NCBI GenBank assembly: GCA_006739055.1
Contig: AP019702.1
Location: 2,321,001-2,385,000 of the forward strand
Direction: 5' to 3'
DNA: 64,000 nt
Source of the DNA: Allostella vacuolata
Lineage (GTDB): Bacteria > Pseudomonadota > Alphaproteobacteria > ATCC43930 > Allostellaceae
A model generated the notes under the pieces. It was not told the origin of the DNA, made no database searches, and saw only the letters and a program-made list of their open reading frames with translations. Shown here piece after piece: positions 22,760 to 28,310 of this stretch; positions within the stretch are counted from its first letter, which is position 1, and every line of letters begins with the position of its first letter. The translations under genes were made by a program, and so were the position numbers.

Positions 22760-23623
22760 ATGCCAAGGGTCGATACGACAATCCAGCCCGTCTTCGTCCG
22801 CCCGCCCACGGGCGACCCGGTGCCGCTGGTGCTCGATTCCCCGCACAGCGGCGACGTCTATCCGGGCGACTTCCGCGCCGCCTGCGCGCCCGAACTGCTG
22901 CGCCAGGCCGAGGACGCCTGGGTCGACGAGCTGTGGGGCGCCGCAACCGGCCTGGGCGCGACGATGGTCGCGGCCGGCTTCCCGCGCGCCTACATCGATC
23001 CCAACCGGGCGCTGGAGGACATGGACCCGGCCTTGCTGGACGAGCCCTGGCCGGGCCCGATCGCGCCCGGCGACAAGTCGGGCCGCGGCGTCGGCCTGAT
23101 CTGGCGGCTGATCAAGGGCGAGGTGCCGATCTACGACCGCAAGCTCTCGGTCGAGGAGGTGCGCCAGCGCATCGACCGCTACTGGCAGCCCTACCATGTG
23201 GCGCTCGACGCGGCGGTCGATGCCGCCCATGCCCGCTTCGGGCGGGTCTGGCACATCGACTGCCACTCGATGCAGGCAACCGGCAACAAGCGCTCGGTCG
23301 ACGGCGACGGCACACCCAGGGCCGACTTCGTGCTGGGCGACCGCGACGGCACCACCTGCGAGCCGGAGTTCACCCGCTTCGTCGCCGACCGGGTCGCCGC
23401 CATGGGCTACTCGGTCAAGGTCAACGACCCCTACAAGGGGGTGGAGATCGTGCGCCGCCACGGCCGCCCGGCCGAGGGCCGGCACAGCCTGCAGATCGAG
23501 CTCAACCGCGCCCTCTACATGGACGAGGAGGCGCACCGCAAGATCCCGCGCTTCGACCGCCTGCAGGCCGACCTGGCGACGCTGACCCGCGACCTGGTCG
23601 GCTTCATCGGCAGCCGGCCGTGA
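22760..23623 (+). CDS. N-formylglutamate amidohydrolase
   Basis: Zinc-dependent amidohydrolase of 287 residues that releases formate from N-formylglutamate, the last step of one histidine degradation route. The family N-terminus VLDSPHSGDVYPGDF supplies early metal ligands. Later blocks RVWHIDCHSMQAT and GRPAEGRHSLQIELNRALYM are characteristic. It begins 3 bases after the DppF-type ATPase and its TGA overlaps the GTG start of the ureohydrolase gene, so the enzyme is expressed with the importer. No other hut genes are visible, so the natural substrate may be another N-formyl or N-acyl amino acid brought in by the transporter. Confidence 0.88.
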   Translation: MPRVDTTIQPVFVRPPTGDPVPLVLDSPHSGDVYPGDFRAACAPELLRQAEDAWVDELWGAATGLGATMVAAGFPRAYIDPNRALEDMDPALLDEPWPGPIAPGDKSGRGVGLIWRLIKGEVPIYDRKLSVEEVRQRIDRYWQPYHVALDAAVDAAHARFGRVWHIDCHSMQATGNKRSVDGDGTPRADFVLGDRDGTTCEPEFTRFVADRVAAMGYSVKVNDPYKGVEIVRRHGRPAEGRHSLQIELNRALYMDEEAHRKIPRFDRLQADLATLTRDLVGFIGSRP

Positions 23624-24507
23624 ACCCGACCTTCGCCACCCCGCCGACCTTCCTCGGCACGCTGCGCACCGACCCCGACGCGCGCTTCGTCGTTGCCGGC
23701 ATCCCCTACGACATCGGCACCACCAACCGCGCCGGCACCCGCTTCGGCCCGGCCGCGATCCGCAGCGCCAGCCGGATGCTGGTCGACGGCGTCAACCCCT
23801 GGCACTGGACCAGCCCGGCCGCCCTCGACCTCGCCGACATCGGCGACTTCGAGATCCGGCTCGGCGACATCGCCGAGAGCCTGCGCCTGATCGAGGCCCG
23901 CGCCGCCGCGGTGACCGGCCACCTGGTGGCGCTGGGCGGCGACCACACCGTCGCTCTGCCGCTGCTGCGCGCCCTGTCGCGCCGCACGGGCCCGCTCGGC
24001 CTGGTCCATTTCGATGCCCATGTCGACACCTGGCCCGACAGCTTCGGCCAGCCGATGGGCCACGGCTCGGTCTTCTACCACGCGATCGAGGAGGGCATCG
24101 TCGACCCCAGGCGGATGATCCAGGTTGGCATCCGCTCGCCGGTCGGCCGCGACGTCTGGGACTGGACGGTCGAGCGCGGCGTCACCATCCTGCCGGCCGA
24201 GGAGTGCCATCACCTGGGCGTCGACGGCGTGGTCGAGCGCATCCGCCGGGTCGTCGGCGACGGCGCCACCTACCTCACCTTCGATATCGACGCCATCGAC
24301 CCCTCCCAGGCACCGGGCACCGGCACGCCGGAGATCGGCGGCCTGTGGACCTGGCAGGCCCAGGCGATCCTCCGCCGCCTCGGCGGCATCGACTGGCGCG
24401 GCATGGACATCGTCGAGGTCAGCCCGCCCTACGACACGGCGGAGATCACCGCTCTGGCGGCGGCGACGTTTGCGTTCGAGTATCTGAGCCTGTTCCGGCC
24501 CGATTGA
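23620..24507 (+). CDS. Agmatinase/arginase-family ureohydrolase
   Basis: Binuclear manganese ureohydrolase of 295 residues. Metal motifs are GGDHT at 106-110, DAHVD at 132-136 and DIDAIDP at 222-228; all ligands are present. The N-terminal GIPYDIGTTNRAGTRFGPAA block favours the SpeB (agmatinase) side over arginase, although guanidinobutyrase, guanidinopropionase and formimidoylglutamase share it. Agmatinase would yield putrescine plus urea, fitting the ornithine decarboxylase and homospermidine synthase genes that follow. Pairing with N-formylglutamate amidohydrolase leaves formimidoylglutamate as an alternative substrate. The GTG start at 23620 overlaps the previous stop. Confidence 0.87.
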   Translation: MNPTFATPPTFLGTLRTDPDARFVVAGIPYDIGTTNRAGTRFGPAAIRSASRMLVDGVNPWHWTSPAALDLADIGDFEIRLGDIAESLRLIEARAAAVTGHLVALGGDHTVALPLLRALSRRTGPLGLVHFDAHVDTWPDSFGQPMGHGSVFYHAIEEGIVDPRRMIQVGIRSPVGRDVWDWTVERGVTILPAEECHHLGVDGVVERIRRVVGDGATYLTFDIDAIDPSQAPGTGTPEIGGLWTWQAQAILRRLGGIDWRGMDIVEVSPPYDTAEITALAAATFAFEYLSLFRPD

Positions 24508-24545
24508 GCTATAGAGGCAGTCCAGACCTCTGCCGGGTGCCCGCC

Positions 24546-25190
24546 ATGCTCTACAACCCCCCGCACTTCCGCGAGAACGACCGCACCGTCCTGGATGACC
24601 ATATCCGCCGCGCGGCCTTCGCGACGCTGGTGTCGGCGGGCGCGGAGGGGCCGATCGTCAGCCATCTGCCGATGCTGCTGCAGGCCGAGCCGGCGCCGCA
24701 GGGGGCGCTGATCGGGCATGTCGCGCGGGCCAACCCGCAATGGAAGGCGAGCGACCTTTCCAAGCCGGTGCTGGCCATCTTCGGCGGCCCGCACGGCTAC
24801 GTCTCGCCGTCCTGGTATCCCGGCAAGACGGAGCATGGCCGGGTGGTGCCGACCTGGAACTATGCGGTGGTGCATGTCACCGGCCGGCTGGTGGTGCTCG
24901 ACGATCCTGATGCGGTGCTCGACATAGTGCAGCGCCTGACCGACACCCACGAGGCGGGCTTCGCCAGCCCGTGGAAGGTGGCCGACGCGCCGGCGGATTT
25001 CGTGCGCGCGCAGCTCAAGGGAATCGTCGGGCTGCGGCTGGAGATTACCTCGGTCGAGGGCAAGATGAAGCTGAGCCAGAACCGCCCGGCGGCCGACCGC
25101 GAGGGCGTGGTGGCGGGGCTGGAGGCCAGGCCCGACCCGGCCAGCCACGCGCTGGGCGGCCTCATGCGCGAGAAGGGGCCGCGCGACTGA
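24546..25190 (+). CDS. PaiB-like FMN-binding protein
   Basis: Protein of 214 residues of the PaiB family with a split-barrel flavin-binding fold. The N-terminus MLYNPPHFRENDRTVLDDHI and the blocks GHVARANPQWK, GPHGYVSPSWYP and VPTWNYAVVHV are diagnostic. Bacillus PaiB was described as a negative regulator of sporulation and protease genes and is encoded with PaiA, a polyamine acetyltransferase; the biochemical role elsewhere is unclear. Its place just before the polyamine genes is suggestive. The ATG at 24546 is chosen because the family N-terminus begins exactly there. Confidence 0.87.
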   Translation: MLYNPPHFRENDRTVLDDHIRRAAFATLVSAGAEGPIVSHLPMLLQAEPAPQGALIGHVARANPQWKASDLSKPVLAIFGGPHGYVSPSWYPGKTEHGRVVPTWNYAVVHVTGRLVVLDDPDAVLDIVQRLTDTHEAGFASPWKVADAPADFVRAQLKGIVGLRLEITSVEGKMKLSQNRPAADREGVVAGLEARPDPASHALGGLMREKGPRD

Positions 25191-25367
25191 GGCGGCGCGC
25201 GGTCCCGTCCCAGAAATCTCCTTGCAATCCCGGCGAAAATCCGTATATCCGCCCCTCGTATTGACGCACACGCACGTGCCAATGGCCCCACGGGGTTATG
25301 TAACGACGGACGCGTCCTTTTTGGCAGAACCGGTCATCAGTGGGCCGGTCCCGAGAGGGAGGTGGAC

Positions 25368-25418
25368 ATGGTTGCGACCCGCGCGGGAGCGCACGCATCC
25401 CGTCTTGGTTCTAGGTGA
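25368..25418 (+). CDS. Candidate 16-residue leader peptide before ornithine decarboxylase
   Basis: An ATG preceded by GGGAGGTGGAC (GGAGG five bases before the start) opens a frame encoding MVATRAGAHASRLGSR and ending in TGA at 25416-25418. The stop codon overlaps the first bases of the terminator-like hairpin that begins at 25417. This ribosome site is among the best in the window, although the ORF is tiny. In enterobacteria the leader peptide SpeFL senses ornithine by stalling ribosomes. This peptide is not obviously similar in sequence, so a sensing role is inference from position only. Three Arg residues and an Ala-rich middle are its only notable features. Confidence 0.5.
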   Translation: MVATRAGAHASRLGSR

Positions 25419-25470
25419 CGACGGCCGGCTGACCCCTGGGGTCAGCCGCTAGATCCGTCGTCGCCCTTTT
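25417..25470 (+). terminator. Two-tier hairpin with T-run, possible attenuator
   Basis: The outer stem GACGACGG (25417-25424) pairs with CCGTCGTC (25455-25462). The inner stem GGCTGACCC (25427-25435) pairs with GGGTCAGCC (25439-25447). TTTT at 25467-25470 follows. The first base of the outer stem is shared with the leader-peptide stop codon. It lies 88 bases before the ornithine decarboxylase start, so it would stop transcription before the gene unless disrupted by a ribosome. Confidence 0.6.
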
Positions 25471-25557
25471 CCTGGAATTCTCGGCCGTCCCTTGCGGGGC
25501 AGGCCGTTTGTCCGACCCCGCCCGCGGCAAGGCCCGGCGGGGCGTCGGGAGGATGTC

Positions 25558-26820
25558 ATGTCCGAGCTGCGTCACCGCTCCGCGGTATCGCCGTTGCGTC
25601 GTCCCATGGTCGGCCGCCAGGCCGATCGCCGGGGCATTCGTGCCAACCAGCGCCTGCCGCTGATCGACGAGGTCGTCCGCGCCCACCGCCCGGAAGACCC
25701 GCTGCACTGCCTGCGCCCGGGCGTGCTGGCCGCGGCCGCGCGCTCGTTCGTGGCCGGCTTTCCCGGCGACGTGCTCTATGCCGTGAAGTGCAACCCGGAG
25801 CCGGCGGTGCTGCGCGCCCTCCACTCGGGCGGCGTCCGCCACTTCGACTGCGCCTCGCCGGCCGAGGTGCGCCTGGTGCGCCAGCTCTTCCCCGAGGCCG
25901 AGGTGCACTACATGCACCCGGTCAAGGGCCGGGCGGCGATCCGCGGCGCGTGGTTCGACCAGGGGGTGCGCGACTTCTCGTTCGACTGCGTCGAGGAGCT
26001 GGAGAAGATCGTCCAGGAGACGGGGGGCGAGGCCGGCCTCGGCCTGTTCGTGCGCCTGGTGCCGCCCAAGGCGAACACCATGTACGACCTGTCCGGCAAG
26101 TTCGGGGCCACCCCGGCGGCGGCGGTCGACCTGCTGCGGCGCGCGCGCGCGGTCGCCGAGCGGGTCGGCATCTGCTTCCATGTCGGCTCGCAGTGCATGG
26201 AGCCGGACGCCTATGCCCGCGCCATCGCGCTGGCGGACGCGGTGGCGCGGGAGTCTGGCGTCCGCATCGACGTGCTCGATGTCGGCGGCGGCTTCCCGGT
26301 CAGCTACCCGGACGTGACCCCGCCGCCGCTCGGCGACTTCATGGCGGCCATCGCCGACGCCTTCGCGGCGACCGGCCTCGGCGATGCCGGCTGCCGCCTG
26401 TGGGCGGAGCCCGGCCGCGCCCTGGTGGCGCCCGGGGTATCGCTGGTGGTCCAGGTGCAGCACCGTCGCGGCGACACTCTGTTTGTCAACGACGGGGTGT
26501 ATGGCAGCCTGTCGGATGCGGGTGCCCCCGGGTTCCGCTTCCCGGCGCGGCTCATCCGCCTCGACCGGTCGGCTTCGGGCGAGCAGCAGGGCTTTTCGTT
26601 CTATGGCCCGACCTGCGACAGCGCCGACCGGATGCAGGGTCCGTTCGTCCTGCCGGCCGACGCGGCCGAGGGCGACTGGATCGAGCTGGGCCAGCTCGGC
26701 GCCTATGGCAGCTCCTTGCGCACGGCCTTCAACGGCTTCGACCAGGCACGGCTGGTCGAGGTCCGCGACCGGCCGCTCCTGGAGACGCCGGGCTACGACC
26801 TGATCGCGGTGGCCGCCTGA
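25558..26820 (+). CDS. Ornithine/lysine decarboxylase, alanine-racemase fold (type III)
   Basis: PLP enzyme of 420 residues that makes putrescine from ornithine. The PLP lysine is Lys77 in YAVKCNPEP. Other family motifs are HVGSQC, DVGGGFPVSYP, WAEPGRALV and YGPTCDSADRMQGP, whose Cys-Asp pair completes the active site across the dimer. It belongs to the eukaryote-like fold III group common in alphaproteobacteria, not the large enterobacterial SpeC/SpeF type; some relatives also take lysine. The ATG at 25558 has GGGAGGATGTC before it. Expression is probably controlled by the structured leader and hairpin upstream. Homospermidine synthase follows 80 bases later and uses its product. Confidence 0.92.
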   Translation: MSELRHRSAVSPLRRPMVGRQADRRGIRANQRLPLIDEVVRAHRPEDPLHCLRPGVLAAAARSFVAGFPGDVLYAVKCNPEPAVLRALHSGGVRHFDCASPAEVRLVRQLFPEAEVHYMHPVKGRAAIRGAWFDQGVRDFSFDCVEELEKIVQETGGEAGLGLFVRLVPPKANTMYDLSGKFGATPAAAVDLLRRARAVAERVGICFHVGSQCMEPDAYARAIALADAVARESGVRIDVLDVGGGFPVSYPDVTPPPLGDFMAAIADAFAATGLGDAGCRLWAEPGRALVAPGVSLVVQVQHRRGDTLFVNDGVYGSLSDAGAPGFRFPARLIRLDRSASGEQQGFSFYGPTCDSADRMQGPFVLPADAAEGDWIELGQLGAYGSSLRTAFNGFDQARLVEVRDRPLLETPGYDLIAVAA

Positions 26821-26900: not shown

Positions 26901-28310
26901 ATGAAGCATGTCCGCTTTTCGGGAAAGATCGTCATGGTCGGCATGGGCAGCATCGGCCAGGGGGTGCTGCCCCTCATCTTCCGGCACATCGATATCGACC
27001 CGGAGCGCGTCGTCATCGTCACCGCCGATGACCGCGGCCGCGACGTCGCCGAGGAGTATGGCGTGCGCTTCATCGAGGAGCCGGTCACCCGCGAGAACCA
27101 TGCGGAGATGATGCGCTCGCTGCTGGGCGCGGGCGACTTCCTGCTCAACCTGTCGGTCGAGGTGTCGAGCGTCGCCCTGATGGAACTGTGCCAGGAGGTG
27201 GGCGCGCTCTATCTCGACACTTGCATCGAGCCGTGGCCGGGCGGCTACACCGACCCGAACCTGACCTACTCGCAGCGCTCCAACTACGGCCTGCGCGAGA
27301 CGGCGCTGGCGGTGAAGCGGCGCTCGGCCGGCGGGCCGACGGCGGTCATCACCCACGGCGCCAACCCCGGCATCGTCTCCTACTTCGTCAAGCGCGCGCT
27401 GCTCGACATCGCGCGCGACACCGGCGTCGCGGCGGAGACGCCCAAGGACCGCGCCGGCTGGGCCGGCCTCGCCCAGAGCCTCGGCGTGAAGACGATCCAC
27501 ATCGCCGAGCGCGATACCCAGGTCTGCCTGACGCCCAAGAAGCCGGGCGAGTTCGTCAACACCTGGTCGATCGACGGCTTCGTCAGCGAGGGCTGCCAGC
27601 CGGCCGAGCTCGGCTGGGGCACGCACGAGCGGCACTTCCCGGCCGACGGCGCCCGGCACGAGGCAGGCAGCGGGTCCGCCATCTACCTGATGCGGCCCGG
27701 CGCCTCGACCAAGGTGCGCACCTGGACGCCGCTCGCCGGCACCATCCAGGGCTTCCTCATCACCCACAACGAGGCGATCTCGATCGCCGACTACTACACG
27801 GTCGCCGGGTCCGACGGGGCGGCCGCCTATCGCCCGACGGTGCACTACGCCTATCACCCGTGCGACGACGCGGTCCTGTCGGTGCACGAGCTGGCCGGCC
27901 GCAACTGGCAGCAGCAGACCCGGCAGCGGCTGATGGTCGACGAGGTGGTGAGCGGCATCGACGAGTTGGGCGTGCTGCTGATGGGCCACGCGAAGAAGGC
28001 CTACTGGTACGGCTCGCGCCTGACCATCGACGAGACCCGCGCGCTCGTCCCGCACAACAACGCCACCAGCCTGCAGGTGACGGTGGGCGTGCTGGCCGGG
28101 ATGATCTGGGCGATGGAGAACCCGAAGGCCGGCGTCGTCGAGCCCGACGAGATCGACCACGAGCGCGCCTTCCAGATCATGACCCCCTACCTCGGCAACC
28201 TGGTCGGCCAGTATGGCGACTGGACCCCGCTGCAGGACCGCGGCGTCCTGTTCCCGGAAGACCTCGACCGCGACGACCCCTGGCAGTTCAAGAACTTCCG
28301 GGTGGTCTGA
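26901..28310 (+). CDS. hss: Homospermidine synthase
   Basis: NAD-dependent enzyme of 469 residues that condenses two putrescine molecules into sym-homospermidine, the characteristic polyamine of many alphaproteobacteria. The Rossmann motif GMGSIGQGVLPL starts near residue 14. LDTCIEPWPGGYTDP and THGANPGIVSYFVKRALL are hallmark blocks of bacterial Hss, and the length matches the family. It sits directly after ornithine decarboxylase with its own CAGGAG ribosome site, so precursor and product enzymes are co-expressed. A GC-rich hairpin follows at 28320-28353. Confidence 0.95.
   Translation: MKHVRFSGKIVMVGMGSIGQGVLPLIFRHIDIDPERVVIVTADDRGRDVAEEYGVRFIEEPVTRENHAEMMRSLLGAGDFLLNLSVEVSSVALMELCQEVGALYLDTCIEPWPGGYTDPNLTYSQRSNYGLRETALAVKRRSAGGPTAVITHGANPGIVSYFVKRALLDIARDTGVAAETPKDRAGWAGLAQSLGVKTIHIAERDTQVCLTPKKPGEFVNTWSIDGFVSEGCQPAELGWGTHERHFPADGARHEAGSGSAIYLMRPGASTKVRTWTPLAGTIQGFLITHNEAISIADYYTVAGSDGAAAYRPTVHYAYHPCDDAVLSVHELAGRNWQQQTRQRLMVDEVVSGIDELGVLLMGHAKKAYWYGSRLTIDETRALVPHNNATSLQVTVGVLAGMIWAMENPKAGVVEPDEIDHERAFQIMTPYLGNLVGQYGDWTPLQDRGVLFPEDLDRDDPWQFKNFRVV

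Follow-up and report, generated by a model that had tools for sequence, protein, structure and literature searches.

In Allostella vacuolata, the gene for an ornithine decarboxylase (ODC) is preceded by a leader in which, on balance, we believe that a structured RNA gates a short open reading frame, and that translation of this ORF keeps a terminator from forming, with the result that the decarboxylase is made. The RNA would belong to one superfamily with the Rfam families ar45 (RF02347) and speF (RF00518). The window referred to throughout is the whole stretch of 64,000 nt that was analysed, and its features are listed in Table 1. Comparison with other alphaproteobacterial leaders supports, as parts of this proposal, the RNA core, its stems, the predicted placement of the Shine-Dalgarno (SD) sequence of the leader ORF within stem P3, an adjacent start codon and an association with polyamine genes.

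Architecture of the leader

Sequence and folding together confirm what the preliminary description had proposed for this region, namely a multi-stem RNA, a 16-codon ORF with a strong SD and a two-tier hairpin followed by a T-run. Likewise, the TGA of the ORF shares bases with the 5' arm of the outer stem in the fold of 25412-25475. This segment folds at -39.5 kcal/mol (z -5.25, with 0 of 200 shuffles as good) and the leader from 25255 to 25475 at -107.6 kcal/mol (z -3.34, 1 of 200); the 51-nt leader ORF alone has no structure beyond that of its shuffles (z 0.31, 120 of 200 as good). From the stop of the leader ORF to the ATG of the decarboxylase there are 139 nt. A strict scan of 25100-25600 reported no sigma-70 promoter.

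The decarboxylase, of a type that we term ODC2, matches the lysine/ornithine decarboxylase 5gjm of the PDB (E 9.9e-42), and no NCBIfam model scored above its cut-off. Homospermidine synthase (HSS) is encoded by the next gene on the strand. On the 5' side of the leader are genes for an N-formylglutamate amidohydrolase, an arginase-family protein and an FMN-binding protein that we take to be PaiB-like. The latter two genes, just upstream on the same strand (23620-25190 of the window), could both fit arginine or polyamine metabolism.

Table 1. The ODC2 leader and the genes that follow it, in positions of the window
Feature	Position	Strand	Remarks
Promoter-like TTGCAA-16-TATATC	25222..25249	+	by eye; similar in 4 genus members
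Conserved RNA core (R1 match), ar45-like 5' domain and speF-like 3' hairpin	25262..25360	+	
Stem P1, GACGC (25263-25267) with GCGTC (25312-25316)	25263..25316	+	encloses the ar45-like domain, with near-invariant blocks CGCACGTGCC (25271-25280) and AACGACG (25302-25308)
Stem P3, CTTTTTGG (25317-25324) with CCGAGAGG (25351-25358)	25317..25358	+	predicted SD sequestration
Shine-Dalgarno of leader ORF, GAGAGGGAGG	25353..25362	+	sequence and alignment; 5 nt spacing to leader-ORF ATG
Leader ORF MVATRAGAHASRLGSR	25368..25418	+	ATG at 25368, 16 sense codons, TGA at 25416-25418
Two-tier terminator-like hairpin over the TGA, then TTTT	25414..25470	+	hairpin 25414-25465 with 11-bp outer and 10-bp inner stem; TGA inside the outer-stem 5' arm; TTTT at 25467-25470; strict scan negative
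Ornithine decarboxylase (ODC2)	25558..26820	+	Pfam PF02784/PF00278; PDB 5gjm
Homospermidine synthase (HSS)	26901..28310	+	PDB 4xq9, E 8.7e-180

Distribution and gene context

Rfam gave no match in the window up to E 1, and on 14 loci it gave only weak matches with miRNA and sRNA names, in a locus (L012) that by eye is without the leader. The leader is common to all four genomes compared from the window's genus and to seven loci of the other family of the order. A covariance model, R1, was built from 11 leaders of the window's order and cut before the start codon. It matches 41 of the 43 genomes of that order, from which the 11 training sequences come, including 25 of 25 that are at least 90% complete. 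Across the class it matches 55 of 385 sampled genomes, 50 of them outside the order. R1 also has a weak second match (33.2 bits) in the genome of the window, ahead of the other ODC of that genome.

A gene-blind DNA pattern scan gave at least 119 stretches. Among the pattern matches listed, R1 matches one place in each of 80 loci out of 80, whose titles include Azospirillum, Magnetospirillum, Parvibaculum, Acetobacteraceae, Kiloniella, Zavarzinia and Reyranella. When an independent sample of 115 genomes of the class was queried with an ODC1 protein, GCACGTGCC was found 240-440 nt before ODC in 19 of the 30 loci examined.

In all, 175 R1 loci with 148 distinct cores were compared, a set that includes genomes reached by two collections as well as the 11 training sequences; a second weak match in L073 was dropped before counting. 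The first recognisable gene is ODC1 in 96 loci, ODC2 in 52 and HSS in 8 (156 of 175). No gene could be recognised in 19 loci, 17 of which have less than 800 nt of sequence.

Although R1 ends before the start codon, an ATG lies within 30 nt past the core in 170 of the 175 loci, and at +4 to +12 in 163 of those 170. By eye, the other five comprise one locus cut by a contig end, two with GTG, one with an ATG slightly further away and one with none. The start that follows the core belongs to an ORF of its own in 135 loci, two of these ORFs, those of L085 and L130, being long, and it runs in frame into ODC in 27 of 175 (26 distinct cores); 8 loci end at a contig edge. In those 27 loci the start is that of ODC itself, so that the RNA should not need a separate peptide in order to act.

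A few loci have other surroundings. In L182 and L206, with Phaeospirillum and Magnetospirillum titles, the RNA and a short ORF stand before similar small proteins, some 60-70 aa long, whose function is unknown. In L085 (R1 match 1501-1596) the ATG of the RNA opens a 294-aa ORF in place of a polyamine gene, and its sequence reads like that of a class-I glutamine amidotransferase. A divergent leader, CACCCACGTNCC ... AACGAGGTNACGGTGCG, is found about 150 nt before ODC1 in L262 and L266, where R1 scores only 14.3 and 16.1 bits, which suggests that the superfamily is wider than the reach of R1.

The hairpin over the stop codon

The ORF, its SD and the stem that overlaps the stop are present in all four genomes of the genus, with changes that preserve the stem (by eye). 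Outside the genus, the 16-aa sequence of the peptide is not kept. In the hairpin, L003 has a compensatory change and L004 has a stem that is rearranged but still paired (by eye).

The preliminary description had seen here a possible ribosome-controlled attenuator. Its geometry is preserved within the genus, and similar arrangements are found in other lineages, but its T-run is weak: it is 4 long in the window and reads TGTTT in L003, one of the four genus members. A strict terminator scan of 25100-25600 found nothing because the T-run has only this length, and an ORF end lying over a terminator hairpin is seen by relaxed terminator criteria only.

Of 111 unique leaders, 16 have a hairpin followed by T4 that begins between -14 and +15 nt relative to the stop, against 2.6 expected (ODC2 10 of 43, ODC1 6 of 60, HSS 0 of 8). 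Azospirillum and Acetobacteraceae are represented among the 16 cases, some of which are closely related to one another. Counted anywhere in the leader, such hairpins occur in 20 of 43 ODC2 leaders, against 6.2 expected; the enrichment is unconvincing for ODC1 (13 of 60 vs 8.0) and for HSS (2 of 8 vs 1.6). The expected numbers come from single-base shuffles, 5 per leader for hairpins anywhere and 10 per leader for those next to the stop.

The remaining 95 of the 111 leaders have no stop-adjacent hairpin of this kind, and therefore the downstream step in them would be a different one, possibly involving Rho, or absent. These leaders have an ORF all the same, as would be expected if the leader ORF served to shield the transcript from Rho and the hairpin were secondary. 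Salmonella ORF34, whose translation is reported to counter Rho, works in this manner (PMC6386406). We consider such shielding an unlikely explanation of the leader, given that the hairpin of the window is far stronger than in shuffles and that the genus retains it, with compensatory changes.

Another kind of hairpin was seen by eye in the Acetobacteraceae-type loci L141, L149, L170, L173, L197 and L143. There the end of the leader ORF itself is a perfect or near-perfect hairpin (e.g., GCGATGCG..CGCATCGC), just before the TGA and mostly with AGT in the loop.

The leader peptide

Substitution patterns were compared among 118 unique leader ORFs, duplicates and ORFs of more than 70 codons (thus L085 and L130) being left out. 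In 189 pairs of equal length, which are not independent of one another, pN/pS is 0.48 in frame, against 1.31 and 1.10 in the shifted frames. Before ODC1, the ratio is 0.37 for ORFs of 36 codons (78 pairs) and 0.43 for 38 codons (17 pairs), and it exceeds 1 for 32 codons (1.63) and 47 codons (1.32), with 6 pairs each. Before ODC2, it is 1.14 for 11 codons (37 pairs), 1.23 for 15 codons (16 pairs) and 0.48 for 13 codons (3 pairs), and smaller groups of short ORFs range from 0 to 0.88. The 14-codon ORFs of HSS leaders give 0.66 (7 pairs). The 16-codon group, to which the window ORF belongs, has a ratio of 0.53 that carries little weight, as it comes from 4 pairs; three of these compare members of the genus, which differ at just 2-3 of 51 nt. 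By these ratios, selection at the level of the peptide is clear for some ODC1 leaders and not so for the window peptide.

A Ser-Ser pair stands in the second half of 48 of 60 unique ODC1 leader peptides. When one unlabelled ORF is included, AGY encodes the first Ser in 27 cases and TCN in 22, and AGT encodes the second in 42 of 49. That the first Ser draws on both codon families speaks for the peptide, and the near-fixed AGT at the second for the codon or the RNA. We suspect that the long ODC1 leader peptides may have an added nascent-chain function, which is probably absent from the short window peptide. By eye, the leader peptides of L263 and L258 end in KTSISGL and RKTSI, resembling the NPLSS endings, and their P3 sequence differs.

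The window peptide has no Ser-Ser. Attenuation by Arg codons was ruled out, since the window ORF holds no run of regulatory codons, only 3 scattered Arg codons. Ornithine has no codon.

The suggestion that the peptide is a sensor of ornithine or a polyamine is unsupported, given that the peptide is not kept outside the genus and that the RNA would act without it in 27 of 175 loci. In its explicit form, the leader peptide would sense the metabolite within the ribosome tunnel, where SpeFL reportedly senses ornithine, and would stall the ribosome at the stop codon. We regard this as quite unlikely for the window. Salmonella ODC does need a 34-aa leader ORF, with ornithine raising expression (PMC6386406), and the peptide-level selection in several ODC1 groups would suit a sensor, as would their frequent Ser-Ser with mostly AGT at the second Ser. 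However, the window peptide is without that pair, the two larger ODC2 groups and some ODC1 groups have ratios above 1, and lineages in which the RNA gates ODC directly have no separate peptide.

Predicted pairing of the ribosome-binding site

Of 147 unique leaders (those with less than 35 nt downstream, those without an ATG and duplicates were left out), 134 have the SD paired, in the predicted fold, with the U-run segment that follows P1. Counted among the 13 others are L108-L111, the paralogous leader of the window's genome and its three genus counterparts, in which the U-run is lost but the sequence that takes its place remains paired with the SD.

The structure was also assessed on 59 diverse leaders, after removal of cores longer than 128 nt or more than 90% identical. 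The named structure has 87.9% of its cells paired, against 36.6-59.7% when slid. Changes on both sides occur in 15 pairs, against 7.3 in shuffles (0 of 500 reach 15); when the structure is slid by 1-3 columns, 10-12 such pairs remain. For the helix of P3, 86.4% of cells are paired, and of its 8 pairs 5 vary on a single side and 3 on both. RNAalifold predicted only the 5' domain on the 59 leaders, with P3 absent; the assessment of P3 comes from the named-structure counts. What is conserved, as judged from alignment and predicted folds, is the upstream RNA domain, the predicted SD pairing and the start codon.

Relation to ar45 and speF

The leader had earlier been associated with the speF motif known at this gene in alphaproteobacteria. 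A search with the Rfam speF model, as then proposed, gave no match in the window up to E 1 and nothing at the gathering threshold of 37 bits, but homology to ar45 plus speF appears from the sequence to be real. At E 0.001 the speF model had no match in the window's genome, in a search in which the control genomes were silent as well; in a separate search it was found in 6 of 190 genomes of the class. Rfam ar45 is immediately upstream of speF in 3 of 3 speF loci scanned, and by coordinates it adjoins speF in all 6 speF-positive genomes. R1 matches 6 of 6 of these ar45-speF loci (L031-L036) across the junction of the two Rfam models, with E values of 1.2e-5 to 0.0085 for 18.8 kb; the loci were preselected as holding those families, and matches at whole-genome scale would be weak.

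The ar45 model does not list the window copy up to E 10, gives the second copy of the genome 19.6 bits (gathering threshold 40) and scores at best 22.6 bits in 11 R1-positive genomes (cut-off 40). Nevertheless, the leader shares with ar45 the CGCACGTGCC and GCAACGACG blocks, a similar nesting of stems and a closing stem followed by U's. The arrangement of CGCACGUGCC ... GCAACGACG in the closing stem and then a U-run, by which ar45 may be recognized, is found here, the window having GTAACGACG. With speF, the leader has in common its place before ODC in alphaproteobacteria, a homologous core hairpin at the same place and, by eye, a bulge in that hairpin and a U-run near AGAGG. It is unlike the six speF loci in that these have, by eye, no ATG or consistent frame past AGAGG. 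A TTG is present in 6 of 6, but the frame shifts between L031 and L032 (by eye), and it was rejected as the start of a leader ORF.

Given the shared blocks, the adjacency of ar45 and speF, and the R1 matches at all six junctions, we read the leader as a divergent, Rfam-invisible member of one ar45-speF superfamily, of which Rfam would recognise a single branch, split between two models.

Published work describes ar45 of Bartonella and S. meliloti as a small RNA in its own right that lies immediately before speF, and reports that the S. meliloti RNA co-precipitates with Hfq (PMC7717549); the literature terms ar45 uncharacterised. Such a separate transcript, and the presence of CTTTTTGG directly 3' of P1 in the window, would be in keeping with a switch that consists of termination at P1 and the U-run, the leader ORF being a passive remnant. 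We find this very doubtful, given that SD pairing remains in L108-L111 although the U-run is lost, and that the start codon comes next in nearly all loci. Despite the reported Hfq association, it is extremely improbable that the 5' domain is a trans-acting sRNA without a role in cis, given its linkage to polyamine genes, the SD and the start codon.

Regulatory model

In the mechanism that we favour, the 5' domain of the ar45-speF-type RNA would answer a signal (a polyamine, ornithine or a protein) and shift P3, and the SD in front of the leader ORF would thereby become accessible or be masked. If the SD were free, the ORF would be translated and a ribosome at the TGA would occupy the 5' arm of 25414-25465. 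The hairpin would then be blocked, transcription would continue, and ODC (and homospermidine synthase) would be made. If the SD were hidden, the hairpin would form and transcription would stop at TTTT.

The sign of this scheme, in which an exposed SD turns ODC on, was chosen by parsimony with the lineages in which the RNA would gate the ODC start directly. A polyamine or ornithine is our guess for the signal because ODC and HSS make polyamines. The guess is tempered by the related speF RNA, which is reported to have bound none of ornithine, lysine, diaminopimelate, putrescine, cadaverine and spermidine (PMC1273637, 2005).

A broader proposal, which we put forward as a tentative possibility, is that ar45, speF and the window leader form one metabolite-sensing superfamily that governs polyamine synthesis across Alphaproteobacteria and has an exchangeable output. 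The RNA would hide either the ODC start directly or a leader ORF that drives antitermination. In this proposal, many ODC1 leader peptides, with endings like R(K/E)NPLSS and AGU for the last Ser, would be a new family of ribosome-arrest peptides, so that RNA and peptide sensors would act in series.

Comparison with known systems and implications

The nearest published description that we found for a leader ORF of this sort is the odc1 motif (uORF-25-1), which is also an alphaproteobacterial ODC leader with a ribosome-binding site in the right shoulder of a hairpin and a short uORF, whose use was shown in E. coli reporters (PMC8632094). As described there, and the comparison is with the description only, odc1 differs in having a pseudoknot and a uORF that starts with UUG, is always 11 aa long and overlaps the ODC start. 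The window leader has 16 aa from an ATG instead of an invariant 11-aa uORF with a UUG two nt before the main UUG. The pattern TTGnnTTG, which is not the odc1 motif proper, occurs within 120 nt before ODC1 in 0 of 30 genes of the class.

The SpeFL/ORF34 system is gammaproteobacterial, has a different peptide and presumably controls an ODC of a different family. It resembles the window leader in that a leader ORF is needed for ODC, with control of termination (PMC6386406). In what we found of its description, there is no RNA domain that hides the SD of the leader ORF itself, and the SpeFL-type core HIRR..H, as quoted there, is absent from our leader peptides (PMC6386406). Similarly, the SAM-II metA riboswitch of S. 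meliloti has its SD inside the riboswitch, with an AUG1 and a terminator ahead of the start that is used; unlike the window leader, it has a known ligand, a different RNA and an AUG2 in frame with AUG1 (PMC9373788).

For ar45- and speF-type leaders, we found no leader ORF described in the open-access PMC literature. The main text of a paper on the small proteome of S. meliloti makes no mention of ornithine, speF or ar45.

Both speF and ar45 have so far been orphans, the 2005 study of speF having found no ligand that binds and ar45 being called uncharacterised. Regarded as the two parts of a single leader that masks a ribosome site, that of a leader ORF in one branch and that of the enzyme gene in another, they would gain a concrete, testable mechanism and a route to the sign of regulation. 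Such a mechanism would offer a possible account of how many alphaproteobacteria switch polyamine synthesis. If true, it would be another case of a small ORF tied to ODC, beside Salmonella ORF34, the uORF of eukaryotic ODC (PMC6386406) and odc1.
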